Positions 1 to 56,695 of a DNA stretch of 64,000 bases are shown piece by piece (the stretch's first letter is position 1; each line of letters starts with the position of its first letter). A model generated the notes under the pieces. The model saw only the letters and a program-made list of their open reading frames with translations, made no database searches and had not been told where the DNA came from. A program made the position numbers and the translations under genes. The stretch comes from Misgurnus anguillicaudatus (lineage: Eukaryota > Chordata > Actinopteri > Cypriniformes > Cobitidae), in the NCBI RefSeq assembly GCF_027580225.2, contig NC_073337.2, forward strand, positions 10,241,001 to 10,305,000, given 5' to 3'.

Positions 1-468
1 GTCTTGGATGTCTCTAGATGCTACATACCAAAGGACATGCAAATCGGACAAACGGTCTAGGAGGAGTTCGAAAAAGTAGGTTTTACGAAAAATTCAAAAT
101 GGCGGAAAGATGTGCATGACACAAATGACATCAATGTGTGCATTTGAATCATCATGAGCCAAGGATTCAGAGGAAACAAGAATTTAGTTTCTAGGACTCA
201 CGGGTCAGAAGTTATGAGCATGAACATAAGTGGATTTTTGGACTGTTGGTGGCGCTAGAGGGTTTGAGTCAGACACACCAATGTTGCTATAGTAACTTCT
301 GAGACTGTCCTCTACATGTGTGCCAAATTTCATAACTTTCCTATGTACGGTTCTATGGGCTGCCATTGACTTTCGGCGGAAGAACGAGGAAGATAAATAA
401 TAATAATAATAATAAGAAAACTAACAATAACAATAGGGTTCTACGCCCCTTCGGGGCTTGACCCCTAA
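1..468 (+). repeat. 3' part of a type A array unit (left-truncated by window)
   Basis: This is the tail of a repeat unit that starts outside the window. It matches the end of the next unit (2,275-2,680) almost base for base, through the shared segment around the TTGGTGGCGCTAGAG motif near 250. It ends in an (AAT)n tract, the GCCCCTTCGGGGC hairpin and GGCTTGACCCCTAA at 455-468. The short minus-strand open frame over its end reads through the AAT tract and hairpin and is not a gene. Confidence 0.85.
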
Positions 469-2680
469 ATATAGCTGCAAGCAGCGATACCGGGGTCAAG
501 CCAAACATGGCAAAAAATGATTCATACGTGATGACTGTCATGATTTAAGATCTAAGTTTGCATTAGTTTTATGAAAAAAAGAGCAATTTTTTGTATCTTG
601 AGACCACTAGGTGGCGCGGTGCAGAAACAATAGATGGTGCCTCAGGTCATGACTGTGATGACACATACCAAATTTAGTGTAAATACGATAAAGCAATACA
701 GAGATATAGCCTTAAATGACTTGACCACTAGGGGGCACTAACCAAACAATAAATTGTGACTCAGGTCTTGATTGTGATGACACCCACCAAATTTGGTGTA
801 AATACAATAAAGAGATGCAGAGATATAGCCTTAAATGACTTGACCACTAGGGGGCACTAACCAAACAATAAATTGTGACTCAGGTCTTGATTGTGATGAC
901 ACCCACCAAATTTGGTGTAAATACAATAAAGAGATGCAGAGATATAGCCTTAAATGACTTGACCACTAGGGGGCACTGACCAAAAAATAAATTGTGACTC
1001 AGGTCTTGATTGTGATGACACCCACCAAATTTGGTGTAAATACGATAAAGAGATGCAGAGATATAGCTTCAAATCTCTTGACCACTAGGGGGCACCGAAA
1101 AGTTTACAAGTCCTCCCAGAACATGTAGGTAATGAACCATACCAAGTTTCATAACAATACACAGTTGCGTTTCTGAAATACTTGAACTTAAAGAAAAATT
1201 CAAAATGGCCGACACACAAAATGGCCGACCAAAAACCATTTGGTATCGTTTGACTCGCCATGCCTCACGAAATCTAACAAGACCAGTCTCATAATTTTAC
1301 ATTCAAATTTGCAGTAGTTATAAGCAAAAATAGACATTTTTTATATCTCGTGACCAGTAGGGGGCAGTGTGACGAAATGGTGCATGCACCCTCAGGGCAT
1401 CACTGTTATGACATATACCAAGTCTCATATTAATACGCAAAAGTTTTGCGAAGATACAGGCTCAAACACATTTTGGCGTGCTCGCCCTCGCATTCTTTGA
1501 TGCGTTATACGACAACGGATAGGTCTACCGAAAATCTTTTGATAACTTTTTGTCTAGAGTGTCTCTAGATGATGCATACCAAAAATCAAGCCAATCACAC
1601 GAGCGCTCTAGGAGGAGTTCGAAAAAGTAGGTGTTCAATATAATTCAAAATGGCCGACAGGAAGTAGGTTTGACTCAGACATATTTGATACCGTCGGACT
1701 CAGCATGACCCAAGGAATCAATTGAGTGAAGTCTTATGTCATAGTGGCAATTTAATCAAATGATATAAAGATTTTAAACAATTTATTTACATATCCTGAC
1801 CACTAGGTGGCGCCGTCCTAAAGATTTATAGGTGCGCTCAGAACATGTCACCGATGAACCATGCCAAATTTAGTAGCGATACGCCATTTGGTTTGTGAAA
1901 TACTGAACTTAATGAGAAAATTCAAAATGGCCGACACCCAAAATGGCCGACCGAAAACGGTTTGGTATCGTTTGACTCGCCATGCCTCAAGGAATCTAAC
2001 AAGACCTCCTTCATGATTTTAGACTCAAGTTTGAAGTAGTTATAAGCGAAAATAGGCATTTTTCGAATCTCGTGACCACTAGGTGGCGCTGTGACGAAAC
2101 GTTGCAGGCACCCTCAGGTCATGACTGTTATGACATATACCAAGTTTCGTGTCGATACACAAAAGTTTTGCGAAGATACGGCCTCACGTCCGTTTTGGCG
2201 TGCTCGCCGCCATATATGTTGTCAGTTTATATGAGAACGCATTGGTCTATCAAAAACCTTTTGATAACTTTTTGTCTTGGGTGTCTCTAGATGCTACATA
2301 CCAAAGGACATGCAAATCGGACAAACGGTCTAGGAGGAGTTCGAAAAACTATGTTTTACGAAAAATTCAAAATGGCGGAAAGATGTGCATGACACAAATG
2401 ACATCAATGTGTGCAATTGAATCATCATGAGCCAAGGATTCAGAGGAAACAAGAATTTAGTTTCTAGGTCTCACGGGTCAGAAGTTGTGAGCATGAACAT
2501 TAGTGGATTTTTGGACTGTTGGTGGCGCTAGAGGGTTTGAGTCAGACACACCAATGTAGCTATAGTAACTTCTGAGACTGTCCTCTACATGTGTGCCAAA
2601 TTTCATAACTTTCCTATGTACGGTTCTATGGGCTGTCATTGACTTCAATGGCGGAAGAGGAAGAATAATAATAATAATAA
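469..2680 (+). repeat. Type A array unit 1
   Basis: A head-to-tail repeat unit of about 2.2 kb. It opens with ATATAGCTGCAAGCAGC, a perfect 5-bp-stem hairpin, followed by CCGGGGTCAAGCC. Inside are four 119-121 bp blocks (motif positions 604, 725, 844, 963) followed by a duplicated module of about 720 bp (motif pairs 1,082/1,800 and 1,354/2,076). It ends in the segment shared by all units and a short AAT tract. The GCCCCTTCGGGGC terminus is absent, and the AAT tract runs straight into the next unit. Open frames inside (for example 2,072-2,290) are repeated with indels and stops between copies, so I do not read them as genes. Confidence 0.85.
604..1081 (+). repeat. 119-bp minisatellite in type A unit 1
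   Basis: The CCACTAG motif recurs at 604, 725, 844, 963 and 1,082, spaced 121, 119, 119 and 119 bp. The last three intervals are near-identical. Each block runs from the motif through CAGGTCTTGATTGTGATGAC and ACCAAATTTGGTGTAAATAC to GAGATATAGCCTTAAA. Confidence 0.9.
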
Positions 2681-4995
2681 ATATAGCTGCAAGCAGCGAT
2701 ACCGGGGTCAAGCCGAACATGGCAAAAAATGATTCATACGTGATGACTGCCATGATTTAACATCTAAGTTTGCATTAGTTTTATGAAAAAAAAGCATTTT
2801 TTTCCTATCTTGAGACCACTAGGTGGCACTGTGCCAAAAGAACAGATGGTGCCTCAGGTCATAACTGTGATGACACATACCAAATTTAGTGTAAATACAA
2901 TAAGGCGATACGGAGATATAGCCTTAAATGACTTGACCACTAGGGGGCACTGACCAAAAAATAAATTGTGACTCAGGTCTTGATTGTGATGACACCCACC
3001 AAATTTGGTGTAAATACAATAAAGAGATGCAGAGATATAGCCTTAAATAACTTGACCACTAGGGGGCACTGACCAAAAAATTAATTGTGACTCAGGTCTT
3101 GATTGTGATGACACCCACCAAATTTGGTGTAAATACAATAAAGAGATGCAGAGATATAGCCTTAAATGACTTGACCACTAGGGGGCACTGACCAAAAAAT
3201 AAATTGTGACTCAGGTCTTGATTGTGATGACACCCACCAAATTTGGTGTAAATACAATAAAGAGATGCAGAGATATAGCCTTAAATAACTTGACCACTAG
3301 GGGGCACTGACCAAAAAATAAATTGTGACTCAAGTCTTGATTGTGATGACACCCACTAAATTTGGTGTAAATACGATAAAGAGATGCAGAGATATAGCTT
3401 CAAATCTCTTGACCACTAGGGGGCACCGGAAAGTTTACAAGTCCTCCCAGAACATGTTGCTGATGAACCATACCAAGTTTCATAACAATACGCAATTGCG
3501 TTTCTGAAATACTTGAACTTAAAGAAAAATTCAAAATGGCCGACACACAAAATGGCCGACCAAAAACCATTTGGTATCGTTTGACTCGGCATGCCTCACG
3601 AAATCTAACAAGACCACTCTCATAATTTTACATTCAAGTTTGCAGTAGTTATAAGCAAAAATAGACATTTTTTATATCTCGTGACCAGTAGGGGGCAGTG
3701 TGACGAAATGGTGCATGCACCCTCAGGTCATCACTGTTATGACATATACCAAGTCTCATATCAATACACAAAAGTTTTGCGAAGATACAGGCTCAAACAC
3801 ATTTTGGCGTGCTCGCCCTCGCATTCTTTGATGCGTTATACGACAACAAATAGGTCTACCGAAAAGCTTTTGATAACTTTTTGTCTAGAGTGTCTCTAGA
3901 TGATGCATACCAAAAATCAAGCCAATCACACGAGCGCTCTAGGAGGAGTTCGAAAAAGTAGGTGTTCAATATAATTCAAAATGGCCGACAGGAAGTAGGT
4001 TTGACTCAGACATATTTGGTACAGTCGGACTCAGCATGAGCCAAGGAATCAATAGAGTGAAGTCTTATGTCATAGTGGCAATTTAATCAAATGATATAAA
4101 CATTTTAAACAATTTATTTACATATCCTGACCACTAGGTGGCGCTGTCCTAAAGATTTATAAGTGCGCTCAGAACATGTCACTGATGAACCATGCCAAAT
4201 TTCGTAGCGATACGCCATTCTGTTTGTGAAAAACTGAACTTAATGAGAAAATTCAAAATGGCCGACACCCAAAATGGCCGACCGAAAACCGTTTGGTATC
4301 GTTTGACTCGGCATGCCTCAAGGAATCTAACAAGACCACCTTCGTGATTTTAGGCTCAAGTTTGAAGTAGTTATATGCGAGAATATGCATTTTTCGAATC
4401 TCGTGACCACTAGGTGGCGCTGTGACGAAACGTTGCAGGCACCCTCAGGTCATGACTGTAATGACATATACCAAGTTTCGTGTCGATACAATAAAGTTTT
4501 GCGAAGATACGGCTTCACGTCCGTTTTGGCGTGCTCGCCGCCATATATGTTGTCAATTTATACGAGAACGCATTGGTCTATCAAAAAGCTTTTGATAACT
4601 TTTTGTCTGGGGTGTCTCTAGATGCTACATACCAAAGGACATGCAAATCGGACGGACGGTCTAGGAGGAGTTCGAAAAAGTAGGTTTTACGGAAAATTCA
4701 AAATGGCGGAAAGATGTGCATGACACAAATGACATCAACATGTGCAATTGAATCATCATGAGCCAAGGATTCAGAGGAAACAAGAATTTATTTTCTAGGA
4801 CTCACGGGTCAGAAGTTGTGAGCATGAACATAAGTGGATTTTTGGACTGTTGGTGGCGCTAGAGGGTTTGAGTCAGACACACCAAATTTGCTATAGTAAC
4901 TTCTGAGACTGTCCTCTACATGTGTGCCAAATTTCATAACTTTCCTACGTACGGTTCTATGGGCTGCCATTGACTTCAATGGCGGAAGAGGAAAC

Positions 4996-5026
<31 letters not shown>

Positions 5027-5138
5027 GAAAACTAACAATAACAATAGGGTTCTACGCCCCTTCGGGGCTTGACCCCTAATAATAAGAAAACTAACAATAA
5101 CAATAGGGTTCTACGCCCCTTCGGGGCTTGACCCCTAA
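2681..5138 (+). repeat. Type A array unit 2
   Basis: Same architecture as the previous unit, but with one extra 119-bp block (motif positions 2,816, 2,937, 3,056, 3,175, 3,294, 3,413) and a complete 3' end. That end is doubled: two successive copies of the AAGAAAACTAACAATAACAA segment with GCCCCTTCGGGGC and CTTGACCCCTAA lie at about 5,025-5,083 and 5,084-5,138. The gain of one block relative to unit 1 shows that the inner minisatellite varies independently of the larger array. Confidence 0.85.
2816..3412 (+). repeat. 119-bp minisatellite in type A unit 2
   Basis: The same 119-bp block, with motif starts at 2,816, 2,937, 3,056, 3,175, 3,294 and 3,413. There is one block more than in unit 1. 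Differences between blocks are single substitutions. Confidence 0.9.
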
Positions 5139-6831
5139 ATATAGCTGCAAGCAGCAATGCCGGGGTCAAGCCGAAAAGGGCACAAAAGGATGTAAAATTG
5201 AGATTGGATAAGCAGATTGAAGAACCTAGGTAAACCTAATAATTTTAGATGAAAAAACAAAAAAGTTATCAACAAAATTAATCTAAGTTCTTGTCTACTG
5301 CAATCGTCCTTCTGTTATTGACAATCATGGAACATTAGAACACTGAAGGACATGTGAGTGGTGTTTGCAGTGGTCACATCATGTTACAACAAGTTTAATT
5401 AGTCAAAAGAGACCATCCCCATGTCTCTACGATGTTCTGATGCAGAGATATAGCTTTTGCAAAAACGGTTGATAAGGTATTCTCAATGGTTGCTAGGGAG
5501 TAAATTGGCAACCACCAGTGATTATAGTCAAAGCCATGAAAGGAATAATCCATGATGACTCATGGTTTTAGATGTGTTGTTGCAGTAGTTTTTAGGCAAA
5601 AATACCATATTCTATCTCAAAACCAGTGGGTGGCGCAATGAAAAAATTGTGCATGCAACATCAGGTCATGATTGTGTTACATCTAGCTAGTTTTATGACA
5701 ATACACTTTAGTTTAGTTAAGAAACAGTTGTATGACCATAGGGCTGGCTTGTTATCAAAGGTTTGTTCAATTATGAGGCCATCTAGTGGTGAAAGCATAC
5801 AATTTTTTTTGTGTAGCCTCAGAATGTGCTCATGCATCAGCGTATCAAATCTGGTGAAAAAATATATTTTCGTTACGAAGTTACAACCATTTATGTGTAA
5901 AAAACACAAAATTTGAATGTAATTTTTCGTTTTTTGCAATTTTCGGCCATTTCTGATGAAAATTTTAATATAACGCCAATAGAACTTTTTGTTCAGAAGG
6001 TAAGGTTAGTTTCTTCCTATGGTGTTTTCGAGTCGATCGGAAAAACGTTCGCGGAGATATTTACGCGTGTTTCTTAAGTGCTATTTTGCTGCGCAGGGTT
6101 AACCGTAAGGCGAATTCGGGTATGTTTGGTATCGTTGGACTCGGCAACTATTTAGAACTCAAAGGAAACAAGTCCTGTGAAAATATGTCAATCGGAGCCA
6201 AAGTTATAGGCATGTAAAACATAAGTCTGACCACTAGGTGGCGCTGTGACGAAACTCTGCATGCACCCTTAGTTCCTGACTGGCATCACAAATACAAAGT
6301 ATCGTGTCAATAGGCTTAAGTTTGGCGAAGATACAGCCTCAAATCCGTTTTTTTGAGCTCTACGTAAAATTTGTTGACGCGCTATACGACAACGGATTGG
6401 TTTATCAAAATTCTTTTAATAACTTTTTGCCTTGAGTGTCTCTAGATGGTGCATACCGATTTTCAAGGCAATCCGGCAAAAGCTCTAGGACGAGTTCGCA
6501 AAAGTAGGTTTTATGAATATTTAAAAATGGCGGGAAAATTTTCATGACGGAAAATGACGTCATAGGGTCCAATCGAATCGTCTTGAGCCAAGGAATCAGA
6601 GGAAACAAGAATTTAATTTCTAGGATGTACGGGTCAGAAGTTATAGGCAAAAACATAAGTGCAATTTTGGACTGTTGGTGGCGCTAGTGGGTTAGATATA
6701 GAGACTCCAAATTTGCTGTGGGGACACATTGGACTGTCGTTTATCAGTGTGCCAAATTTCATAACTTTCCTACGTACGGTTCTATGGGCTGCCATAGACC
6801 GCAATGGCGGAAGAAGAATAACTAATAATAA
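5139..6831 (+). repeat. Type B array unit 1
   Basis: A shorter unit of about 1.7 kb that shares the first 36 bp and last roughly 450 bp with type A but has a different interior. Motif-bearing blocks start near 5,623 (CCAGTGGGTGGCGC), 5,779 (CCATCTAGTGGTG), 6,231 (CCACTAGGTGGCGCT) and 6,672 (TTGGTGGCGCTAG). The open frames at 5,626-5,916 (+) and 5,661-5,939 (-) overlap on opposite strands and recur in each type B unit. They look like chance frames in AT-rich repeat DNA. The unit ends at an AAT tract without the CCCCTTCGGGG terminus. Confidence 0.85.
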
Positions 6832-8609
6832 ATATAGCTGCAAGCAGCAATGCCGGGGTCAAGCCGAAAAGGGCAAAAAAGGATGTAAAATTGAGATTGG
6901 ATAAGCAGATTGAAGAACCTAGGTAAACCTAATAATTTTAGATGAAAAAACAAAAAAGTTATCAACAAAAATAATCTAAGTTCTTGTCTACTGCAATCGT
7001 CCTTCTGTCATTGACAATCATGGAACATTAGAGCACTGAAGGACATGTGAGTGGTGTTTGCAGTGGCAAAACATGGGTCACATCATGTTACAAGAAAGTT
7101 TAATTAGTCAAAAGAGACCATCCCCGTCTCTCTACGATGTTCTGATGCAGAGATATAGCTCTTGCAAAAATGGTTGATAAGGTATTCTCAATGGTTCCTA
7201 GGGAGTAAATTGGCAACCACCAGTGATTGTAGTCAAAGCCATGAAAAGAAAAATCCATGATGACTCATGGTTTTAGATGTGTTGTTGCAGTAGTTTTTAG
7301 GCAAAAATACCATATTCTATCTCAAAACCAGTAGGTGGCGCAATGAAAAAATTGTGCATGCAACATCAGGTCATGATTGTGTTACATCTAGCTAGTTTTA
7401 TGACTATACACTTTAGTTTAGTTAAGAAACAGTTGTATGACCATAAGGCTGGCTTGTTATCAAAGGTTTGTTCAATTATGAGGCCATCTAGTGGTGAAAG
7501 CATACAATTTTTTTTGTGTAGCCTCAGAATGTGCTCATGCATCAGCGTATCAAATCTGGTGAAAAAATATATTTTCGTTACGAAGTTACAACCATTTATG
7601 TGTAAAAAACACAAAATTTGAATGTAATTTTTCGTTTTTTGCAATTTTCGGCCATTTCTGATGAAAATTTTAATATAACGCTAATAGAACTTTTTGTTCA
7701 GAAGGTAAGGTTAGTTTCTTCCTATGGTGTTTTTGAGTCGATCGGAAAAACGCTCGCGGAGATATTCACGCGTGTTTTTTAAGCGCTATTTTACTGTGCA
7801 GGGTTAACCGTAAGGCGAATTCTGGCATGTTTGGTATCGTTGGACTCGGCAACTATTCAGAACTCCAAAGAAATAAGTCCCGTGAAAAAACGTCGATCGG
7901 AGCCAAAGTTATAGGCATGTAAAGCATAAGTCTGACCACTAGGTGGCGCTGCGACGAAACTCTGCATGCACCCTTAGTTCCTGACTGGCATCACAAGTAC
8001 CAAGTGTCATGTCAATAGGCCTAAGTTTGACGAAAATACAGCCTAAAATCTGTTTTTTTGCGCTCTACATAAAATTCGTTAAGGCGGTTTACGAGAACGG
8101 ATTGATGTATCGAAATTCTTTTGATAACTTTTTGCCATGAGTGTCTCAAGATGATACATACCAATTTTCGTGGCAATCGGACAAAAGCTCTAGGACGAGT
8201 TCGAAAAAGTAGTTTTTTTTATTAATTCAAAATGGCGGGAAAATTTACATGACGGAAAATAACATCATAGGGTCCAATCGAATCGTCTTGAGCCAAGGAA
8301 TCAGAGGAAACAAGAATTTCGTTTCTAGGACTTACGGATCAGAAGTTATAAACAAAAACATAAGTGCAACTTTGGACTGTTGGTGGCGCTAGCGGGTTAG
8401 ACATAGAGACTCCAAATTTGCTGTGGGGACACATTGGAGTGTCCTTTATCAGTGTGCCAAATTTCATAACTTTCCTACGTACGGTTCTATGGGCTGCCAT
8501 AGACCGCAATGGCGGAAGAAGAATAACTAATAATAATAATTATTATAAAAAGAAAACTAACAAATACAATAGGGTTCTACGCCCCTTCGGGGCTTGACCC
8601 CTAATAATA
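6832..8609 (+). repeat. Type B array unit 2
   Basis: Near-identical to type B unit 1 over its length, with scattered substitutions and short indels. The CTCF-like motif recurs at about 7,329, 7,487, 7,937 and 8,381. It carries the full 3' end, with GCCCCTTCGGGGC followed by TTGACCCCTAAT (8,581-8,603), then an AAT step into the next ATATAGCTGCAAGCAGC. Confidence 0.85.
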
Positions 8610-10324
8610 ATATAGCTGCAAGCAGCAATGCCGGGGTCAAGCCGAAAAGGGCACAAAAGGATGTAAAATTGAGATTGGATAAGCAGATTGAAGAACCTAG
8701 GTAAACCTAATAATTTTAGATGAAAAAACAAAAAAGTAATCAACAAAAATAATTTAAGTTCTTGACTACTGCAATCGTCCTTCTGTTATTGACAATCATG
8801 GAACATTAGAGCACTGAAGGGCATGTGAGTGGTGTTTGCAGTTGCAAAACATGGGTCACATCATGTTACAACAAGTTTAGCTAATCAAACGAGACCATCC
8901 CCGTGTCTCTACGATGTTCTGATGCAAAGATATAGCTTTTGCAAAAACGGTTGATAAGGTATTCTCAATGGTTGCTGGGGAGTGAATTGGCAAACACCAG
9001 TGATTATAGTCAAAGCCATGAAAGGAATAATCCATGATGACTAGTGGTTTTAGATGTGTTGTTGCAATAGTTTTAGGCAAAAATACCATATTCTATCTCA
9101 AAACCAGTAGGTCGCGCAATGACAAAACTGTGCATGCAACATCAGGTCATGATTGTTTTACATCTAGCTAGTTTTATGTCTATACACTTTAGTTTAGTGA
9201 AGAAACAGTTGTATGACCATAGGGCTGGCTTGTTATCAAAGGTTTTGTTCAATTATAAGGCCATCTAGTGGTGCAAGCATACAATTTTTTTTGTGTAGCC
9301 TCAGAATGTGCTCATGCATCAGCGTATCAAATCTGGTGAAAAAATCTCTTTTCGTTACGAAGTTACAACCATTTATGTGTAAAAAACACAAAATTTGAAG
9401 GTAATTTTTCGTTTTTTGCAATTTTCGGCCATTTCTGATGAAAATTTTAATATAACACCAATAGAACTTTTTGTTCAGAAGGTAAGGTTAGTTTCTTCCT
9501 ATGGTGTTTTCGAGTCGATCGGAAAAACGTTCGCGGAGATATTCACGCGTGTTTTTTAAGTGCTATTTTGCTGCGCAGGGTTAATCGTAAGGCGAATTCT
9601 GGCATGTTTGGTATCGTTTGACTCGGCAACTATTCAGAACTCCAAAGAAGCAAGTCCCATGAAAATACGTCAATCGGAGCCAAAGTTATAGGTGTATAAA
9701 ACATTTCTCTGGCCACTAGGTGGCGCTGCAACAAAACTATGCATGCACCCTCGGTTCCTGACTGGCATCTCAAGTACCAAGTGTCGTGTCAATAGGCCTA
9801 AGTTTGACGAAGATACAGCCTAAAATCTGTTTTTTTGCGCTCTACATAAAATTTGTTAAGGCGGTATACGACAACGGATTGGTGTATCGAAATTCTTTTG
9901 ATAACTTTTTGCCTTAAGTGTCTCAAGATGATACATACCAATTTTCGTGGCAATTGGACAAAAGCTCTAGGACGAGTTCGAAAAAGTAGGTTTTACGAAT
10001 AATTCAAAATGGCGGAAAATTTTTATGTCGAAAAAAGACGCCATAGGGTCCAATCGAATCGTCTTGAGCCAATGAATAAGAGAAAGCAATAATTTTGTTT
10101 CTAGGGCTTACGGATCAGAAGTTATAAGCAAAAACATAAGTGCAACTTTGGACTGTTGGTGGCGCTAGCGGGTTAGACATAGAGACTCCAAATTTGCTGT
10201 GGGGACACATTGGACTGTCCTCTATCAGTGTGCCAAATTTCATAACTTTCCTACGTACGGTTCTATGGGCTGCCATAGACCGCAATGGCGGAAGAAGAAG
10301 AAGAAGAATAACTAATAATAATAA
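8610..10324 (+). repeat. Type B array unit 3
   Basis: Another type B copy. The AAG expansion before its end (10,294-10,309) is private to this copy. It lacks the CCCCTTCGGGG terminus and joins the next unit through AATAATAAAT. Where the other copies have GGTGGCGCAATG, this one reads GGTCGCGCAATG at about 9,110, an example of motif decay. Confidence 0.85.
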
Positions 10325-12100
10325 ATATAGCTGCAAGCAGCAATGCCGGGGTCAAGCCAAAAAGGGCACAGAAGAAAGTAAAGTTGAATTGGATAAGCAG
10401 ATTGAAGAACCTAGATAAACCTAATAATTTTAGATAAAAAAAACAAAAAAGTTATAAACAAAAATAATTTAAGTTCTTGTCTACTGCAATCGTTCTTCTG
10501 TTATTGACAATCATGGAACATTAGAGCACTGAAGGACATGTGAGTGGTGTTTGCAGTGGCAAAACATGGGTCACATCATGTTACAACAAGTTTAATAACT
10601 CAAAAGAGACCATCCCCGTGTCTCTACGATGTTTTGATGCTGAGATATAGCTTTTGCAAAAACGGTCGATAAGGTATTCTCAATGGTTGCTAGGGAGTAA
10701 CTTGGCAACCACCAGTGATTATAGTCAAAGCCATGAAAGGAATAATCCATGATGACTCATGGTTTTAGATGTGTTGTTGCAGTAGTTTTAGGCAAAAATA
10801 CTATATTCTATCTCAAAACCAGTAGGTGGCGCAATGAAAAAATTGTGCATGCAACATCAGGTCATGATTGTGTTACATCTAGCTAGTTTTATGACAATAC
10901 ACTTTAGTTTAGTTAAGAAACAGTTGTATGACCATAAGGCTGGCTTGTTATCAAAGGTTTTGTTCAATTATAAGGCCATCTAGTGGTGCAAGCACACAAT
11001 TTTTTTTTGTGTTGCCTCAGAATGTGCTCATGCATCAGCGTAGCAAATCTGGTGAAAAAATATATTTTCGTTACGAAGTTACAACCATTTATGTGTAAAA
11101 AACACAAAATTTGAATGTAATTTTTCGTTTTTTGCAATTTTCGGCAATTTCTGATGAAAATTTTAATATAACGCCAATAGAACTTTTTGTTCAGAAGGTA
11201 AGGTTAGTTTCTTCCTATGGTGTTTTCGAGACGATCGGAATAACGCTCGCGGAGATATTCACGCGTGTTTTTTAAGCGCTATTTTGCTGCCCAGGGTTAA
11301 CCGTAAGGCGAAATCTGGCATGTTTGGTATCGTTGGACTCGGCAACTATTCAGAACTCCAAAGAAACAAGTCCTGTGAAAATACGTCAATCGGAGCCAAA
11401 GTTATAGGTGTATAAAACATTTCTCTGGCCACTAGGTGGCGCTGCAACGAAACTGTGCATGCACCCTCGGTTCCTGACTGGCATCAGAAGTACCAAGTGT
11501 CGTGTCAATAGGCCTAAGTTTGACGAAGATACAGCCTAAAATCAGTTTTTTTGCGCTCTACGTAAAATTTGTTAAGGCGGTATACGACAACGGATTGCTG
11601 TATCGAAATTCTTTTGATAACTTTTTGCCATGAGTGTCTCAAGATGATACATACCAATTTTCGTGGCAATCGGAGAAAAGCCCTAGGACGAGTTCGAAAA
11701 AGTAGGTTTTACGAATAATTCAAAATGGCGGAACAATTTTTATGACGGAAAATAACGACATAGGGTCCAATCGAATCGTCTTGAGCCAAGAAATCAGAGG
11801 AAGTAAGAATTTTGTTTCTAGGGCTTACGGATCAGAAGTTATAAGCAAAAACATAAGTGCAACTTTGGACTGTTGGTGGCGCTAGTGGGTTAGACATAGA
11901 GACTCCAAATTTGCTGTGGGGACACATTGGACTGTCCTTTATCAGTGTGCCAAATTTCATAACTTTCCTACGTACGGTTCTATGGGCTGCCATAGACCGC
12001 AATGGCGGAAGAAGAATAACTAATAATAATAATAATTATTATAAAAAGAAAACTAACAAATACAATAGGGTTCTACGCCCCTTCGGGGCTTGACCCCTAA
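10325..12100 (+). repeat. Type B array unit 4
   Basis: Type B copy with a complete 3' end (GGCTTGACCCC at 12,087-12,097). The interior follows the same order of blocks as the other type B units, with CCACTAGGTGGCGCT near 11,431. Confidence 0.85.
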
Positions 12101-13858
12101 ATATAGCTGCAAGCAACAATGCCGGGGTCAAGCCGAAAAGGGCAAAAAAGGATGTAAAATTGAGATTGGATAAGCAGATTGAAGAACCTAGGTAGACCTA
12201 ATAATTTTAGATGAAAAAACAAATAAGTTATCAACAAAAATAATCAAAGTTCTTGTCTACTGCATTCGTCCTTCTGTTATTGACAATCGTGGAACATTAG
12301 AGCACTGAAGGACATGTGAGTGGTGTTTGCAGTGGGTCACATCATGTTATAACACGTTTAATTAGTCAAAAGAGACCATCCCCGTGTCTCTACCATGTTC
12401 TGATGCAGAGATATAGCTTTTGCAAAAACGGTTAATAAGGTATTCTCAATGGTTGCTAGGGAGTGAATTGGCAACCACCAGTGATCATAGTCAAAGCCAT
12501 GAAAGGAATAATCCATGATGACTCATGGTTTTAGATATGTTATTGCAGTAGTTTTAAGCAAAAATACCATATTTCTATCTCAAAACCACTAGGTGGCGCA
12601 ATGACAAAATTGTGCATGCAACATCAGGTCATGATTGTGTTACATCTAGCTAGTTTTATGTCTATACACTTTAGTTTAGTGAAGAAACAGTTGTAAGACC
12701 ATAGGGATGGCTTGTTATCAAAGGTTTTGTTCAATTATAAGGCCATCTAGTGGTGCAAGCATAAAATTGTTTTTGTGTAGCCTCAGAATATGCTCATGCA
12801 TCAGTGTATCAAATCTGGTGAAAAAATATATTTTCGTTACGAAGTTACAACCATTTATGTGTAATAAACACAAATTTTGAAGGAAATTTTTCGTTTTTTG
12901 CAATTTTCGGCCATTTCTGATAAAAATTTTAATATAACGTCAATAGAACTTTTTGTTCAGCAGGTAAGGTTAGTTTCTTCCTATGGTGTTTTCGAGTCGA
13001 TCGGAAAAAAGTTCGCGGAGATATTCAAGCGTGTTTCTTAAGCGCTATTTTGCTGCGCAGGGTTAACCGTAAGGCGGATTCTGGCATGTTTGGTATCGTT
13101 GGACTCGACAACCATTCAGAACTCCAAAGCAACAAGTCCCGTGAAAATACGTCAATCTGAGCCAAAGTTATAGGTGTATAAAACATTTCTCTGGCCACTA
13201 GGTGGCGCTGCGACGAAACTGTGCATGCACCCTCAGTTCCTGACTGGCATCACAAGTACCAAGTGTCGTGTCAATAGGCCAAAGTTTGACGAAGATACAG
13301 CCTAAAATCCGTTTTTTTTAGCTCTACGTAAAATTCGTTAAGGCGGTATATGACAACGGATTGCTGTATCAAAATTCTTTTGATAACTTTTTGCCATGAA
13401 TGTCTCAAGATGATACATACCAATTTTCGTGGAAATCGGACAAAAGCTCTAGGACGAGTTCGAAAAAGTAGGTTTTTTAAACAATTCAAAATGGCGGAAA
13501 AATTTAATATCGGAAAATTACGTCATAGGGTCCAATCGAATTGTCTTGAGCCAAGGAATCAGAGGAACCAAGAATTTTGTTTCTGGGACTCACGGATCAG
13601 AAGTTATAACCAAAAACATAAGTGCAACTTTGGACTGTTGGTGGCGCTAGCGGGTTAGAGATAGAGACTCCAAATTTGCTGTGGGGACACATTGGACTGT
13701 CCTCTATCAGTGTGCCAAATTTCATAACTTTCCTATGTACGGTTCTATGGGCTGCCATAGACCGCAATGGCGGAAGAAGAACCAGAATAATAATTATTAT
13801 AATAGGAAAACTAACAAATACAATAGGGGTCTTCGCCCCTTCGGGGCTTGACCCCTAA
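12101..13858 (+). repeat. Type B array unit 5 (last full unit)
   Basis: Last full copy of the array. Its 5' hairpin is mutated (GCTGCAAGCAAC), breaking one stem pair. Unlike its neighbours it reads CCACTAGGTGGCGCAATG at 12,588-12,605, closer to the CTCF-like consensus. It ends with GGCTTGACCCCTAA and is followed by further 3' ends rather than another 5' end. Confidence 0.85.
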
Positions 13859-13860
13859 TA

Positions 13861-14125
13861 AGAAAACTAACAAATACAATAGGGTTCTACGCCCCTTCGG
13901 GGCTTGACCCCTAAAAATTAAGAAAACTAACAAATACAATAGGGTTCTACGCCCCTTCGGGGCTTGACCCCTAATAATATATAATAATAATAATAATAAG
14001 AAAACTAACAATAACAATAGGGTTCTACGCCCCTTCGGGGCTTGACCCCTAATAATAATAATAATAATAATAAGAAAACTAACAATCCCAATAGGGGTCT
14101 CGCCCATTCTGGGCTTGACCCCTAA
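13861..14125 (+). repeat. Four extra tandem copies of the array's 3' terminus
   Basis: Four further copies of the terminal segment of about 54 bp (AGAAAACTAACAAATACAAT, then the GCCCCTTCGGGGC hairpin, then CTTGACCCCTAA) lie at about 13,861-13,915, 13,921-13,973, 14,000-14,052 and 14,074-14,124. They are separated by TAA/AAT runs. The last is degenerate (GCCCATTCTGGGC), and the array stops there. A minus-strand frame of 145 codons over this stretch arises from the repeated terminus and is not a gene. Confidence 0.85.
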
Positions 14126-14730
14126 ATACTCATGGCCTTCTGTATTGCATTCGTTTTGTACATTTACAGGTTCATAAATACTGTCGAATTTTAATTTCTT
14201 TAAGACAGAGCTGTGTTCTGTATTTACTGATGCACTGTAAATTTGCACTTTAAAAACCTTCTTGTTAAGAAATTGTTCTTCAATTTATTTTAGTTTTTTC
14301 AAATAATATATTTATATAACAGAATAGTTTGTTAATCTTTCTCATAAGGGAAACGAATTATTATAATATTTCGTAATTACTTATTACATTTATTATTACT
14401 TAAAATTAGTAAAACATGTGAATGTCGTGGAAACAATTTGTTAATTTTAATTATATCCGGAGCTCCGTATCAGTTAAACTATAATAGCCAACACACAACT
14501 GTACATAACTGCGATTTATCAGCTAATACTTTAATTAAATGCAATTATCCAAGAAAACAATTAGGCTTACTAAAAAAAATTATATCGGAGCGGGATCTGA
14601 GCGGGAATTGGTTTATTTGCGAGCCTGAGCGGAAAGTTAACGGAGCGCTTGCTTAGGCGGTGAGCGCTTGAACAGTAGAGCGGAATATTTAGCGGAGCGT
14701 CACACCGCTCTGCTTCACTCACATGCACTG
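14126..14730. other. AT-rich stretch with no recognised gene
   Basis: A+T-rich DNA just past the array. I see no coding or repeat structure until about 14,600, where a short stretch with repeated GAGCGG/GCGGAG words precedes a hAT-like end (ACAGCCCTAA near 14,743-14,748). Confidence 0.5.
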
Positions 14731-19433: not shown

Positions 19434-19589
19434 CATGGTTTCTTGACATCAACGTTATCGCCACCAAGCTTCCGACAGCTCTTTCAAACTTTATTAAACA
19501 CATTTAAAAACATGTTCGCTGATAAGGAAATACTTTGTGGATAAATGTTTGTTGGGAATTGTGCCCATGTTGCAATGTTTTTAAGATCT

Positions 19590-19935
19590 TCATTCAAAAT
19601 GTTGATGTTTTTCTGTGTTCAGTCGAGAAGAAATCATGTTTTTTGAGGAAAACATTCCAGGATTTTCTCATTTTAATGGACTTTAATGGACCCCAACACT
19701 TAACAGCTTCAATGCAGTCCAAAATTGCAGTTTCAACGCAGTTTCAAAGGACTCCAAACGATCCCAAACGAGGCACAAGGGTCCCATCCAGCGAAACGAT
19801 TGTCATTCTTGGCAAGAAAAACAAAAAATATGCACTTTTAAACCACAACTTCTTATCTTCCGTATGCGAAACTACGCCCCAGTGTTTACAAGTGTGGAGA
19901 AAGAGGATCGTTCCTACGTTTTTGTATATCGAATG
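19590..19935 (+). repeat. Dispersed repeat family D, copy 1
   Basis: This copy shares the CAGTCGAGAAGAAAT, TTTGAGGAAAAC and CCACAACTTCT landmarks with copies at 21,650-22,244 (-), 28,340-28,870 (+) and 30,560-30,900 (-). The four copies share order and spacing but are diverged. The 133-codon frame here is not conserved between copies. Confidence 0.65.
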
Positions 19936-19946
19936 ATACTAATTAA

Positions 19947-20405
19947 AGGTGACATAGAATGATTGAACGGAGTATTTATCCTTGTTCTGTTATGTGACAT
20001 GTAGACAAAATTTTTTTTGTTTGGGTCTGTAATGCCTTAGATGCTTCCTAAAAACCTCTCTAAGAAAGCTCTATTAGGGTGGGGGATTTTAAACAAGTGG
20101 TTTTGCACCTATTTGGCTCCCCCTACTGGCTTAACTTGCAATCTCATTACTGATTGGCTGACGTTGCTGCCACTCAAAAAATGTAGCCAATTATTTTAAA
20201 GTGGAAGGGCAGTTAGATGCCTGTCATGTCATAAGCATCAGTTTTTCAGATTGGGCTGTTTTCTGGCTGACATTTCTAAAAGAGGAATTTCTATGAGACT
20301 GAGATGTTTAGCATGTTTAGCACTTTTTGTATGTTTGTGAATGTGGGTAGACTACCATTATTCAACAAAGACAAGGTAAAAATGGTTTTTCATTTTCTGT
20401 CCCCT
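19947..20405. mobile_element. TTAA-flanked MITE (AGGTGACATAG ends)
   Basis: AGGTGACATAGAATG at the left pairs with CATTTTCTGTCCCCT at the right, and TTAA lies immediately outside both ends (19,943-19,946 and 20,406-20,409). TTAA duplications are typical of Kolobok and piggyBac elements. No coding sequence is seen. Confidence 0.65.
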
Positions 20406-30409: not shown

Positions 30410-30559
30410 AGGGAATGCTTTCAGTGGCTGTGGGCGGGGCTTTATCAGTGTGACATCACATTAACAAGAGATTCAAAATGGCATGTCTAATGATACTGCT
30501 TTGCTTTAATGGGATTAAAAAAATGACGATCGGGTAGGTTTTTTTCATTGTAGGTTGGT

Positions 30560-30900
30560 TGTGTTCACATACTGCCAACATCCAGACACCTTATAAAAGT
30601 GTATATTGCATAATTGGTGCCCTTTAAAAGTATATGTATTTTTGTTGGTGAAAAGATGATCGTTTTGCTGGACCTTTATGCCTCGATCGGGATCGTTTGG
30701 ATCCCTTTGAGGCTGCATTGAAACTGTAAACTGTAGAGGTCCACTAAAGTCCATGAAGAAAAATCTTGGAATGTTTTTTTCAAAAAGCTTGATATCATCT
30801 CGACTGAACAAAGACAGATAAACATCTTGGAAGACATGGGGGTGAGTAAATGAACAGAATTGTGAAATATTCCTTGCACAATACTTTAAGAAGTGGAGAA
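30560..30900 (-). repeat. Dispersed repeat family D, copy 4
   Basis: Reverse-oriented copy with GGATCGTTTGGATCCCTTTG, CATCTCGACTGAACAAAGA and GACATGGGGGTGAGTAAAT. The minus-strand frames of 120 and 67 codons overlap in different phases and are not conserved in the other copies. Confidence 0.65.
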
Positions 30901-32363
30901 GGGGCATTTCTGTTACTGACTAATAACCTTTTCATTGCCATTAAAGTGAAATGACTAAACATAAGAGCCTGATAAAAAATTCTTAACTTTGAATCCGTGC
31001 AAAGTTACATTCAGTATATCCAATGTTTATTTCCAGCTTCTGTTTTCTAAAGTTTTGTCCGATTTTGTTTTTTACCGGACATTTTCTCTGGTCATCAACA
31101 TTTTACCACAAATGTGTTCAACGGAGCTTAAGCCATACTGAACCCAGAACTATCCATTAAGAATTCACTCAACCGTGAGTTTCCTTATACATAGAAGAGG
31201 CTCTAATGAGAAAATACCAGGAACGAGACGGAAACTGCTCTGAGATCTGTCGGATGCTGGCCGCTTCATCAGTGAAGTTTAATCTCCCATGGGCTTGCCT
31301 GTCTGTGTGGGAACCGGTGGTTATATACACATCCACAGACAAAAGCATACTGGGTAGAGATGGAGGGGGCTGTTGAATTTCTTTCTGTTCTGTTTGATTC
31401 CGTCTTTCACTCGAGCTGTTTGAATCCGTTTTCTCATACGTCGGGTCAGAAAGGTGCGTGAGGCTGACAGAGAGAAACACAAGTGGGTTTGTGTGTGAAG
31501 AACACACAGCGGTCAGATTCTCAGAAGGATGTGCCATGGAAACTCATGCTCGCTTTTTTGCACCAAACTGCTCCTTGAGTGGGAATTTCTGGAAATGTAT
31601 TTCTATACTGAATTCAGAGACTTTAATGTATTTATGTTACTACAGAACACAGCCTGCTCACATATAAACAGTACTTGTTTAGTTGTTTTCGAAAAGCATT
31701 TTTTTTAAACTGAAAGGAGGGTTCAGCGGTACAAATTCTGATTCTGGTCTGGTGTCATTTAGATCAAACTATCTGCTGTGATTGTTAAGTGATATTGTTT
31801 AAAGTCATGAGATTGAGAACTCCCTGAATGTTTGTTTTTCCTCCCCAGACTGAGAGAGATAAAATGACTCCCTTTGAAATAATGAACAATTAATCCATGA
31901 AACCGCTTTTCCCAGCATGCATCTCGCTTGCTCCACTGTGATTGGCTAACCTATTTACAAAGTACAGGTTGTTGCGAGGAGACCAAGTGCAAACGGTCTT
32001 AAATATTGATCCTTCAGAATGTGCCATACGTTACGATGAACCCAGCATGTTAGTAAGCACCCAAGACTCACTTGGTTCTCTCTCTCTCTCTCTTTTTCTC
32101 TCTCTTTCTTTCTCTCTCTCTTTCTTTCTGTTTGTCTGTACCCTTGTCCCTGCGGGAGTGCTGGGTTGTTTGTGTTTGTCTAATGAAGTGAGATGATTGT
32201 CTCTCAGTATGAAGTCACCAGAGACGGAAAGCCAAGCAGCAGTAAGGTAACAGAGTGATTGACAGATGGAGGGAGTGAATGAATACGCACAAGTTCTGTA
32301 AAAAAACACACTAGGCAAGAAGCATCAGTAAAAACTTAAAATCTGCTTAGTTTTTAGCATCAT
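30901..32363. other. No gene seen; CT-rich low complexity at about 32,078-32,130
   Basis: Mostly non-repetitive. A minus-strand frame of 122 codons (31,169-31,537) has no recognisable domain and no supporting splice or promoter signals. The CTCTCT/TTTCTTTC run inside is a microsatellite. Confidence 0.4.
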
Positions 32364-49574: not shown

Positions 49575-50222
49575 AGAGTGTAAAAAATGGATGTAGTGTC
49601 CGTGACGTCACCTGTAGGTTTCTGAAGAGCCGTTGCCATCTTTGCAGCGCGTCACTCGCGGATAACCGAAAAAAGGTGGAATGTGGGTGGTGCCTGGTTG
49701 CTGAAACCATGCCCGCCCACTTAGCTCAATTGTAGTGACAGAAGCGGAAATTCATCTGCCACTCAAGTGGCCACGCCCTTAATTATTCCGAACTTTAAGG
49801 CTTAATATAGATCCCTGCAAGGTTTGTAAACATTGAATGACTATCGGGTGCACGCGCAGCATGGGGTCAAACTGTTCATACCATTTAGGCTTTCTAGTTC
49901 AATCTAACAGGGCTGAAAAATTATGACTTACTTGAAATGTAGGGAGCACTATAAACACAAGCCTCTTTGATATTTGCATTGTCCCAGTCTGCACGTTTAA
50001 TTGCTTGCAGCCACAGATGTTGTATTTTTTGTTTTTGAGATTCTGCAGGAATCCCGAAAAACTTAACGGCAGACCTGGTGTGATTTTCAAAGCCCACGAT
50101 GTAAGTATCATTTTGACGATACCGAATAATACGCGACTCAATCTGCTGTAATTACATTTTTGACCCCGACATGCGCAGTGGGAACCGCCTGTGACGTGAA
50201 CCGTGAAGGGGTCTATTGTTTA
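49575..50222. repeat. Dispersed repeat family E, copy 2
   Basis: TGTAAAAAATGGATGTAGTG with GTCCGTGACGTCACCTGTAG matches the partial copy at 46,203. It carries TGACGTCA and TGACGTGA words. Frames on the minus strand (49,483-49,710 and 49,899-50,141) have no domains. Confidence 0.5.
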
Positions 50223-50239
50223 GAATGTAAGTTTAAACA

Positions 50240-50562
50240 GAATTAACCACACCCACTGAAATGTGACTTTGAATGTAAATGACCACGCCCATTAAAATGT
50301 GAGTTTGAATATAATTGACCACTCCCACTAGAATGTGAGATTAAATGTAACTGACAACTCTCACTAGAATGTAGGTTTGACTAGAATTAACCACGCCCAG
50401 TGGAATGTGAGTTTAAATGTAATTAACCACGCCCAGTGGAATGTGAGTTTAAATGTAATTGACCACGCCCACTGGAATGTGAGATTTAATAAAATTGACC
50501 ACTCCCACTAGAATGTGAGTTTGAATAGAATTGACCACACCCACTAGAATGTGAGTTTTAAT
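50240..50562 (+). repeat. 36-bp minisatellite, left half
   Basis: About nine copies of a 36-bp unit (ATTGACCACGCCCACTGGAA then TGTGAGTTTGAATGTA) with substitutions. The array is split by a hAT element and resumes at 52,260. Confidence 0.85.
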
Positions 50563-52259: not shown

Positions 52260-52516
52260 CAAATTGACCACTCCCACTAGAATGTAAGATTGAATAGAAT
52301 TGACCACTCCCATTAGAATGTGAGATTAAATGTAACTGACAACTCCCACTAGAATGTGAGTTTGAATAGAATTGACCACTCCCACTAGAATGTGAGTTTG
52401 AATAGAATTGACCACTCCCACTAGAATGTGAGATTAAATGTAATTGACCACGCCCACTGAAATGTAAAATTGAATGTAATTGACCACGCCCACAGGAATG
52501 TAAATTTGTGTGTGAT
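52260..52516 (+). repeat. 36-bp minisatellite, right half
   Basis: About seven more copies of the 36-bp unit seen at 50,240-50,562. A further degenerate copy or two lies at 53,350-53,425 beyond the inverted-repeat element. Confidence 0.85.
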
Positions 52517-52658
52517 TGACCATAGAGACAGAGCGCAGCGCGTCATAACCTGAAAACCACGCCCACCAGGGGGGAAAGCAATCCAACGGTCCCCATTGAC
52601 TTTGTATTGCAAGAGGCCGCCTCCTTGTCATTTCTGGCTTATAACAAAAAACTGAATA

Positions 52659-55230: not shown

Positions 55231-56695
55231 GATTCATACACCATCAGTGTTTTACATCACCATCACCCCTTTACATCACCATCACCACTTTACATCACCA
55301 TCACTGCTCCATATCACCATCAGTGTTTTACATCATCATCACTGCTTCACATTACCTCTTCATACACCATCACCGCTTTACATCACCATCAACGCTTCAC
55401 ATCACCATCAACGCTTCACATCACCATCACTGCTTCACATCACCATCAGTGTTTTACATCACCATCAGTGTTTTACATCACCATCAGTGTTTTACATCAC
55501 CATCAGTGTTTTACATCACCATCACTGCTTCACATCACCAACGGTGTTTTACATCACCATCACTGCTTCACATCACCATCAGGGCTTCACAGCACCATCA
55601 CTGATTTACATCACCATTAGTGTTTTCCATCATCATCACCACTTCACATCACCATCACTGATTCACATCACCATCACTGATTTACATCACCGTCAGTGTT
55701 TTACATCACCATCACTGCTTCACATCACCAACGGTGTTTTACATCACCATCAGTGTTTTACATCACCATCACCGCTTTACATCACCATCAACGCTTCACA
55801 TCACCATCACCGCTTTACATCACCATCACTGCTTCACATCACCGCTTCACATCACCATCAGTGTTTTACATCACCATCACTGTTTTACATCACCATCACT
55901 GATTAACATCACCGCTTCACATCCCCATCAGTGTTTTACATCACCATCAGTGTTTTACATCATCATCACCGCTTCACATCACCATCACCGCTTCATACAC
56001 CATCAATGCTTAGCATCACCATCACCGCTTTACATCACCATCACTGCTTCACATCACCATCATAGCTTCACATCACCCATCACCACTTTACATCACCATC
56101 ACTGCTCCATATCACCATCAGTGTTTTACATCATCATCACTGCTTCACATCACCATCACCGCTTAACATCACCATCACTGCTTCACATCACCATCACTGC
56201 TTTACATCACCGTTTCACATCACCATCACTGCTTCACATCACCATCAGGGTTTTACATCACCAACATTGTTTTACATCACCATCAGTGTTTTACATCACC
56301 ATCACTGCTTCACATCACCATCACCGCTTCACATCACCCTCACTGCTTCACATCACCAACAGTGTTTTACATCACCATCACTGCTTCACATCACCATCAC
56401 TGCTTCACATCACCATCACTGCTTTACATCACCGCTTCACATCACCATCAGTGTTTTACATCACCAACAGTGTTTTACATCACCATCAGGGCTTCACATC
56501 ACCATCACCGCTTTACATCACCATTAGTGTTTTACATCACCATCACCACTTTACATCACCATCAGTGTTTTACATCATCATCACCGCTTCACAGCACCAT
56601 TACTGATTTACATCACCATCAGTCCTCCTGATCATCATCACTTTTCTATCACATCACTGCTTCATATCACCATCAGTGTTCCATATCATCAATAC
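55231..56695 (+). repeat. 19-bp minisatellite in the pleiotrophin intron
   Basis: About 75 tandem copies of a 19-bp unit (TTTACATCACCATCAGTGT and variants such as CTTCACATCACCATCACTG). It fills most of the 1.77-kb intron between the first two coding exons. Because 19 is one more than a multiple of three, the array reads through all three forward frames as the same His/Ser/Thr-rich 19-residue repeat, giving frames of 231 and 290 codons. They have no start context or splice support and lie inside an intron. Confidence 0.92.

Follow-up and report, generated by a model that had tools for sequence, protein, structure and literature searches.

In a stretch of 64,000 nucleotides from Misgurnus anguillicaudatus (Cobitidae; contig NC_073337.2, positions 10,241,001 to 10,305,000; hereafter the window), the first 14 kb are occupied by repeat units in which a motif resembling the core binding site of CTCF recurs on one strand. 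This raises the question of what these units are and why the motif differs so little between blocks whose remaining text has diverged. We consider it likely that the array consists of eight stacked copies (one of them clipped) of a rolling-circle transposon family of the Helentron/Helitron2 type (HINE) without recognised genes, that the copies fall into subfamilies A and B and are oriented on the minus strand, and that the motif heading their blocks would have been kept by selection for CTCF binding. Positions are counted from the first letter of the window.

Layout of the array

The units stand head to tail: two type A units are followed by five type B units, and the tail of another unit (positions 1-468) precedes them. 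Boundaries were taken from a repeated start, (A)TATAGCTGCAAGCAGC, which occurs at 469, 2681, 5139, 6832, 8611, 10325 and 12102. The type A pair (469-2680 versus 2681-5138) was 96.0% identical, and pairwise identity among the five type B units (5139-13858) ranged from 92.6 to 95.0%. Resemblance between the types was assessed on the first unit of each, A1 and B1. The common start agreed over 53 bp at 87%, the opposite end over about 600 bp at 79%, and the interior in stretches at 69-76%, plus a few of 18-23 bp at 91-100%. When the units were compared with the remaining window at E ≤ 1e-3, a single match of 23 bp was obtained.

No Rfam family matched within the window at gathering scores, and Pfam gave no match for the 10 of 22 listed open frames of the window that were compared. 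Frames of at least 110 codons in the array were one of 114 codons within the units and one of 157 codons crossing end modules; both lay outside the Pfam set. Exact patterns (three against viral contigs, one against genome contigs) found no match in the collections used, which says little because these collections hold only viruses, bacteria and archaea.

Motif-led blocks in both unit types

A block profile was built from 12 type A downstream flanks (positions +16 to +111), with the motif excluded. It gave 61 hits in the window at E ≤ 10, of which the 27 exceeding 20 bits and nearly full in length were counted as blocks. They comprise 17 type A blocks, 12 of them members of the profile itself, and the full set of 10 type B blocks, which scored 23.3-50.7 bits; no type B block had entered the profile. 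Each full-length block reached at least 23.3 bits versus a best score of 8.5 bits in 50 shuffles. All 27, found without the motif, lay directly behind it; therefore the motif is not an artefact of the choice of examples, and flank-only block finding ruled out that it was retained merely through that choice. The initial annotation had proposed that type A and type B units share one inner order of block elements, and the recovery of all type B blocks above shuffles by a type A flank profile bears this out.

Spacing of the blocks was less uniform than the ~120-bp period proposed for the whole unit. Among 26 steps between successive full blocks, nine measured 119-121 bp, all within the type A minisatellites, and 17 measured 272-1216 bp (unit-to-unit steps included). 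Outside the minisatellites, blocks recurred at 272, 446 and 276 bp in type A and at about 608 bp in type B. Ungapped matches at offsets of 100-139 numbered three in the type B consensus (maximum over 40 shuffles, six) and zero in A1 positions 1191-2680. After removal of three minisatellite copies, A1 gave 14 such matches (shuffle maximum, four), all touching the minisatellite edge: 12 came from 647-664 versus 1121-1138 and two from a motif pair at the join. Offset bands of the type B consensus that rose above all 40 shuffles were 160-179, 420-439 and 600-619, the last being the 608-bp step, and type A repeats internally at an offset of ~720 bp (593 bp at 80%). With no excess in the type B consensus or in A1 1191-2680, the outcome that the initial annotation had named as refuting its proposal, a ~120-bp period was rejected outside the minisatellite.

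The further idea that the family grew from one ~120-bp block preserving the motif survives in part. Homologous motif-led blocks, and a motif that has changed less than its flanks, agree with it; simple repetition at ~120 bp does not. Growth of the family shows at least three layers: the 119-bp minisatellite of type A, the ~720-bp duplication of type A and whole elements that were apparently inserted into one another. A weaker motif near the unit end was also considered as a possible additional block. Its match to the block at 1800 was unconvincing (z 2.5 and 1.6, below shuffle maxima), and the comparisons with those at 6231 and 2076 gave z values of 9.0 and 4.8, respectively.

CTCF-like motifs mostly on one strand

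The motif matched the CTCF core consensus in print, CCASYAGRKGGCRS (excerpt of PMC6746451), as well as a CTCF matrix of 19 columns, and by both measures it is a putative CTCF site. Positions 1-14130 and the rest of the window were scanned. As controls, Markov shuffles of orders 1-3 (300 each for exact matches, 200 each for the matrix) and 500 column-permuted matrices were used. In 1-14130, the 16-mer CCASYAGRKGGCRSYV had 21 exact matches on the plus strand and none on the minus strand; the rest of the window held none, nor did 300 shuffles at each order.

At p < 1e-4, 1e-5, 1e-6 and 1e-7, the matrix gave 34, 34, 25 and 22 plus-strand hits in 1-14130 and 5, 2, 0 and 0 minus-strand hits. At the same thresholds the rest of the window gave 16, 4, 2 and 0 hits on the plus strand and 11, 2, 2 and 1 on the minus strand. 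Plus-strand hits in array shuffles had means of at most 3.1, 0.42, 0.08 and 0.01 and maxima of 8, 4, 2 and 1, and none of the 500 permuted matrices reached the observed totals. A chance origin of the motif was rejected, given that no shuffle or permuted matrix attained these totals. The initial annotation had counted more than 30 same-strand motifs and expected matrix scores above those of shuffled sequence. Both statements agree with the 34 plus-strand hits at p < 1e-5 (shuffle mean at most 0.42, maximum 4), though eight of the 34 are copies of one weak form (13.7 bits), the other 26 being block motifs of 15.2-27.5 bits. Hits are not independent of each other because the units are related copies. 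Counted per complete copy, and with weak and minus-strand hits included, the matrix found 9 in A1, 10 in A2 and 3-4 in each type B unit.

Each type B unit also carries a minus-strand motif, CCACTAGATGGC, situated about where a weak plus-strand block match would place its motif. The weak block matches beside it scored 4.2-5.9 bits, within the shuffle range; that the site is a decayed block is possible but unproven. Outside the array, two CTCF-like 16-mers with one mismatch were seen at 20114 and 50693, both on the minus strand.

Conservation of the motif relative to its flanks

Variation was compared between the consensus sequences of eight block lineages (m1, minisatellite, m5, 1354, 1800, 2076 and two of type B). 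Mean pairwise identity was 0.875 in motif columns and 0.577 in flanks, and the motif was more alike than the flank in 27 of 28 lineage pairs. Among 106 windows of 14 columns that did not touch the motif, the highest identity was 0.727. Invariant columns made up 10 of 14 in the motif versus 25 of 133 in the flank (Fisher p = 9e-5). Across the 27 individual block copies, the consensus was departed from in two cells only.

The variable motif columns are positions 4 (C/G), 9 (G/T), 13 (G/A) and 14 (C/G). At all four the CTCF consensus is degenerate, and only the matrix's two favoured bases occur there; the chance that four variable columns would all fall among the six degenerate ones is 0.015. Column diversity dropped with rising information of the matrix (rho -0.60, one-sided permutation p 0.012).

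Ends of the units

In minus-strand orientation, a complete unit consists of a hairpin start TTAGGGGTCAAGCCCCGAAGGGGC, (TTA)n, the body, GGCTTGACCCC, six bases, the palindrome GCTGCTTGCAGC and TATAT. The 5' hairpin, which is followed by (TTA)n, had a predicted energy of -17.9 kcal/mol (RNA parameters, without shuffle control). Inside it, 3 nt from the 5' end, lies the subterminal repeat GGGGTCAAGCC; GGCTTGACCCC is located 23 nt from the 3' end and is followed by the palindrome. A matching inverted repeat is present at both ends, and the terminal sequences of the element are TTAGGGGTCAAGCC...GCTGCTTGCAGCTATAT.

The following features of HINEs and Helentrons were found: (i) a 5' subterminal inverted repeat; (ii) a pairing 5' inverted repeat together with a microsatellite; (iii) a 3' subterminal repeat with a palindrome. 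Such elements also have central tandem repeats and no coding capacity, and they take T-rich targets without duplicating them; here, the 119-bp minisatellite was seen in type A alone, and junctions lay in (TAA)n or at the end of a module. The units thus end like a non-autonomous Helentron/Helitron2 element (HINE), probably placed on the minus strand.

Bracket-like order of modules and bodies

Ten 5' end modules (the short terminal segments listed in Table 1) were counted for eight bodies. A1, B1 and B3 lack an adjoining module, and surplus modules lie beside A2 (one) and to the right of B5 (four). Listed from the right edge of the array leftward, the modules and bodies are C, A, B, B, B, B5, B, B4, B3, B, B2, B1, A, A, A2, A1, A, A0, where bare letters are modules and numbered letters are bodies. 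A new copy that inserts between an older module and its body would leave the two apart; modules and bodies therefore should pair like brackets. Such last-in-first-out pairing assigned a module of the same type to 8 of 8 bodies and left one C and one A module open. The probability of this by chance was 0.00085 with random placement and shuffled types and 0.00155 with types shuffled alone. Next to the outer A module is a short remnant that agrees with the A tract.

The bracket order suggests that copies of the element inserted one after another into earlier copies, next to the (TTA)n tract. The nesting model predicts an A-type body and then a C-type body to the left of the window, and the type C module implies a third subfamily whose body is outside the window.

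Features of the window

The coordinates of units, end modules, motifs and repeats are collected in Table 1.

Table 1. Units, end modules, CTCF-like motifs and internal repeats of the array
Feature	Position	Strand	Remark
A0, partial type A unit clipped by window start	1-468	-	end module at 414-468
A1, type A unit without adjoining end module	469-2680	-	
A2, type A unit with two end modules	2681-5138	-	
B1, type B unit without adjoining end module	5139-6831	-	
B2, type B unit with end module	6832-8610	-	
B3, type B unit without adjoining end module	8611-10324	-	
B4, type B unit with end module	10325-12101	-	
B5, type B unit with end module	12102-13858	-	
5' end module, A-type text	414-468	-	
5' end module, A-type	5025-5079	-	
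5' end module, A-type, detached	5084-5138	-	putative bracket partner of A1
5' end module, B-type	8547-8604	-	
5' end module, B-type	12043-12100	-	
5' end module, B-type	13807-13858	-	
5' end module, B-type, detached	13860-13914	-	putative bracket partner of B3
5' end module, B-type, detached	13920-13974	-	putative bracket partner of B1
5' end module, A-type	13998-14052	-	partnerless within window
5' end module, third type (C), right edge of array	14072-14125	-	partnerless within window
119-bp minisatellite, A1	625-1095	+	Tandem Repeats Finder (TRF), 4.0 copies
119-bp minisatellite, A2	2814-3426	+	TRF, 5.1 copies
Internal duplication of A1 (~720-bp offset), first copy	1073-1660	+	80%
Internal duplication of A1 (~720-bp offset), second copy	1791-2382	+	
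Five CTCF-like block motifs, A1 (19-mers from 601, 722, 841, 960, 1079)	601-1097	+	22.0-26.6 bits
CTCF-like block motif, A1	1351-1369	+	25.0 bits
CTCF-like block motif, A1	1797-1815	+	26.5 bits
CTCF-like block motif, A1	2073-2091	+	26.1 bits
Six CTCF-like block motifs, A2 (19-mers from 2813, 2934, 3053, 3172, 3291, 3410)	2813-3428	+	22.7-26.6 bits
CTCF-like block motif, A2	3682-3700	+	25.0 bits
CTCF-like block motif, A2	4128-4146	+	26.1 bits
CTCF-like block motif, A2	4404-4422	+	26.1 bits
CTCF-like block motif, B1, first block	5620-5638	+	15.2 bits
CTCF-like block motif, B1, second block	6228-6246	+	26.1 bits
CTCF-like block motif, B2	7325-7343	+	19.3 bits
CTCF-like block motif, B2	7933-7951	+	26.1 bits
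Block motif with G-to-C change, B3	9104-9117	+	misses p 1e-4 cut of matrix scan because of the change
CTCF-like block motif, B3	9710-9728	+	27.5 bits
CTCF-like block motif, B4	10816-10834	+	19.3 bits
CTCF-like block motif, B4	11426-11444	+	27.5 bits
CTCF-like block motif, B5	12583-12601	+	20.0 bits
CTCF-like block motif, B5	13192-13210	+	27.5 bits
Eight weak motifs of the form TGGACTGTTGGTGGCGCTA (19-mers from 239, 2512, 4843, 6668, 8373, 10149, 11866, 13631)	239-13649	+	13.7 bits each
Five motifs CCACTAGATGGC, one per B unit (at 5774, 7479, 9256, 10971, 12738)	5774-12756	-	p < 1e-4, 11.6-13.9 bits
Partial block text (GTGTCTCAAGATGATACATACCAATTTTC-like) without CTCF-like motif ahead, four B units	8137, 9927, 11630, 13395		16.0-17.4 bits, type A profile

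Elsewhere in the window, a 19-bp minisatellite (55239-56675, about 77 copies, 79% matches) is crossed by several long open frames. Two 36-bp minisatellites with similar, TAGAATGTGAGTTTGAATATAATTGACCACGCCCAC-like units (50221-50562 and 52262-52522) lie about 2 kb apart. Frames on opposite strands, 19526-19936 (+) and 30545-30919 (-), have short text in common (MDF, GP, NDP-RG) and no Pfam match; they are perhaps copies of another repeat.

Weighing of the explanations

According to the interpretation as stacked HINE copies with selected CTCF motifs, the array would have grown mainly through insertion of new copies into the (TTA)n tract of older ones, next to it, or at their 5' end. Such an insertion would separate the 5' module of the older copy from its body and leave all copies co-oriented. 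The body is a chain of diverged blocks, each headed by the CTCF core motif, as can be read from the sequence itself. CTCF is expected to bind at least the strongest motif copies, and the motif would most likely have been kept by selection on active copies for this binding. Active elements may benefit from it, for example if CTCF holds the element in open, cohesin-associated chromatin. By analogy with Dxz4, 26 strong motifs of the same direction within 14 kb would presumably block cohesin from one side.

Several observations weigh against this interpretation: (i) four partial block matches in type B units lack a preceding motif yet exceed shuffles (13.9-17.4 bits over both profiles), and therefore part of the block text occurs without the motif; (ii) a McDonald-Kreitman-like table for selection on active copies (fixed and segregating changes; 4/174 versus 4/87) was not significant (p = 0.45), and the motif was less variable than the flank among recent copies too (ratio 0.38 within and 0.30 between lineages); (iii) no autonomous partner was seen, Pfam being empty for the 10 of 22 listed frames; (iv) the right end on the plus strand, with CTAA and a hairpin 11 nt inward, also suits the 3' terminus of a canonical Helitron, because of which the orientation of the element is not certain; (v) just three of the eight bracket pairings, those of A1, B1 and B3, are non-adjacent and thus informative, which makes the bracket order moderate evidence; (vi) AT-rich remnants beside two outer B modules match the B tract poorly.

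The motifs might instead be an inherited part of the repeat without CTCF function, kept by descent, conversion, another protein or the transposition machinery. We regard this as conceivable but doubtful. The relatedness of the copies, with its non-independent hits, agrees with it, as do the non-significant table, the low motif variation even within lineages and the G/A variation of column 13, which could be CpG decay. It accounts less well for blocks whose flanks are down to 57.7% identity while the motif is still at 87.5%, and the restriction of all four variable columns to CTCF-degenerate positions with permitted bases would be unexpected under conversion.

That one or two element insertions were followed by unequal exchange or replication slippage, so that the array grew as a higher-order satellite and (TTA)n slippage left modules missing or surplus, appears unlikely. 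Head-to-tail order, similar units, minisatellites and internal duplications do show slippage-type growth at this locus, and the extra neighbour-type modules beside A2 and B5 fit local duplication. The type B units, however, are about equidistant (92.6-95.0%), neighbours not being clearly the closest, the A-type and C-type modules on the right of B5 do not duplicate their neighbours, and the bracket order was type-consistent in 8 of 8 cases.

That the units are canonical, Helitron1-like plus-strand elements that end in CTAA, have a hairpin on the 3' side and carry the CTCF-like motifs in sense, is improbable: although the right end CTAA agrees with CTRR, GCCCCTTCGGGGC ends 11 nt before it as in canonical Helitrons and T follows 5 of the 10 modules, the reading fails at the opposite end because that end is not TC but (A)TATAGC at all seven junctions and has a palindrome of its own, both ends share a matching inverted repeat that canonical Helitrons lack, A follows the other 5 of 10 modules, and the palindrome measures 13 nt, not 16-20.

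Relation to known elements

The assignment of the units to minus-strand HINEs was compared with elements described in excerpts of the papers cited here. In Helitron2, a short inverted repeat lies 0-2 bp from the 5' end in a hairpin, and its partner, ~20-30 bp from the 3' end, precedes a hairpin (Bao and Jurka 2013, PMC3627910). The present units are alike in having the 5' inverted repeat in a hairpin near the end and its 3' partner at 23 nt, within 20-30 and just before the hairpin; they differ in a 5' repeat 3 nt from the end and in that no RepHel protein was seen in them. In HINEs of mites (HINE-Mo), the distance between repeat and element end is 2-4 nt on the 5' side and 38-60 bp on the 3' side, where a palindrome is also present (Thomas and colleagues, PMC4067079). 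The oyster element Cg_HINE shows the order subterminal repeat, inverted repeat, microsatellite, central satellite-like repeats, subterminal repeat and palindrome (PMC7492417). With HINE-Mo, Drosophila DINE-1 and Cg_HINE the units have in common subterminal inverted repeats, a 5' inverted repeat with microsatellite, central tandem repeats (here in type A), a 3' palindrome and an apparent lack of proteins (PMC4067079, PMC7492417). They differ in repeats that hold the CTCF core motif and in the stacking of the copies, which apparently results from self-insertion; at 23 nt, their 3' spacing is also shorter than in the mite elements.

The closest precedent for the principle are Caenorhabditis Helitrons, which spread heat-shock elements, with more than 100 sites in some copies and binding supported by chromatin immunoprecipitation followed by sequencing (ChIP-seq) (PMC6927752). 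They resemble the present family in multiplying the site of one host factor by rolling-circle transposition; the host factor is another one and its binding is backed by ChIP-seq, whereas CTCF is implicated here by motif sequence. DINE-1-like elements of D. miranda, which supply binding sites of the male-specific lethal complex, are another precedent (PMC4067079).

Among CTCF-associated repeats, macrosatellites of the DXZ4 type are likewise tandem arrays of multi-kb units, and Dxz4 orientation is reported to control contacts (PMC5899087). They are bound by CTCF, whereas the present motifs are predicted sites; the unit described here is transposon-like with several motifs, and 14 kb of the array are seen. 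CTCF-bound transposon families of zebrafish, SINE3-1a and HATN9_DR, are alike as fish transposons that supply CTCF sites but are different families by name (PMC9341505); the word "Helitron" is absent from the main text of that paper. SINE B2, HERV and MER20 are other CTCF-bound transposons named in the literature excerpts. A literature search returned no paper combining Helentron and CTCF, and in the excerpts found for Helitron with "CTCF binding", PMC7786948 and PMC8896005 report no CTCF sites in a Helitron.

Significance

If the array is indeed a stack of HINE copies with CTCF sites, the 3-10 CTCF-matrix hits per complete copy together with stacking in one orientation would provide a natural route to directional CTCF clusters. 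Naturally varied size and direction of such clusters would let their effect on chromosome folding be asked. Missing and surplus ends in tandem arrays of rolling-circle elements would find a simple explanation in the bracket pattern.

A more far-reaching possibility, which we put forward tentatively and hold to be rather unlikely, is that a rolling-circle family has evolved around CTCF. Much of its interior would be a chain of selected CTCF-site blocks, and self-insertion beside (TTA)n would build clusters of one direction that act as mobile DXZ4-like barriers. Should this be true, such ready-made barriers could arise repeatedly in one genome.

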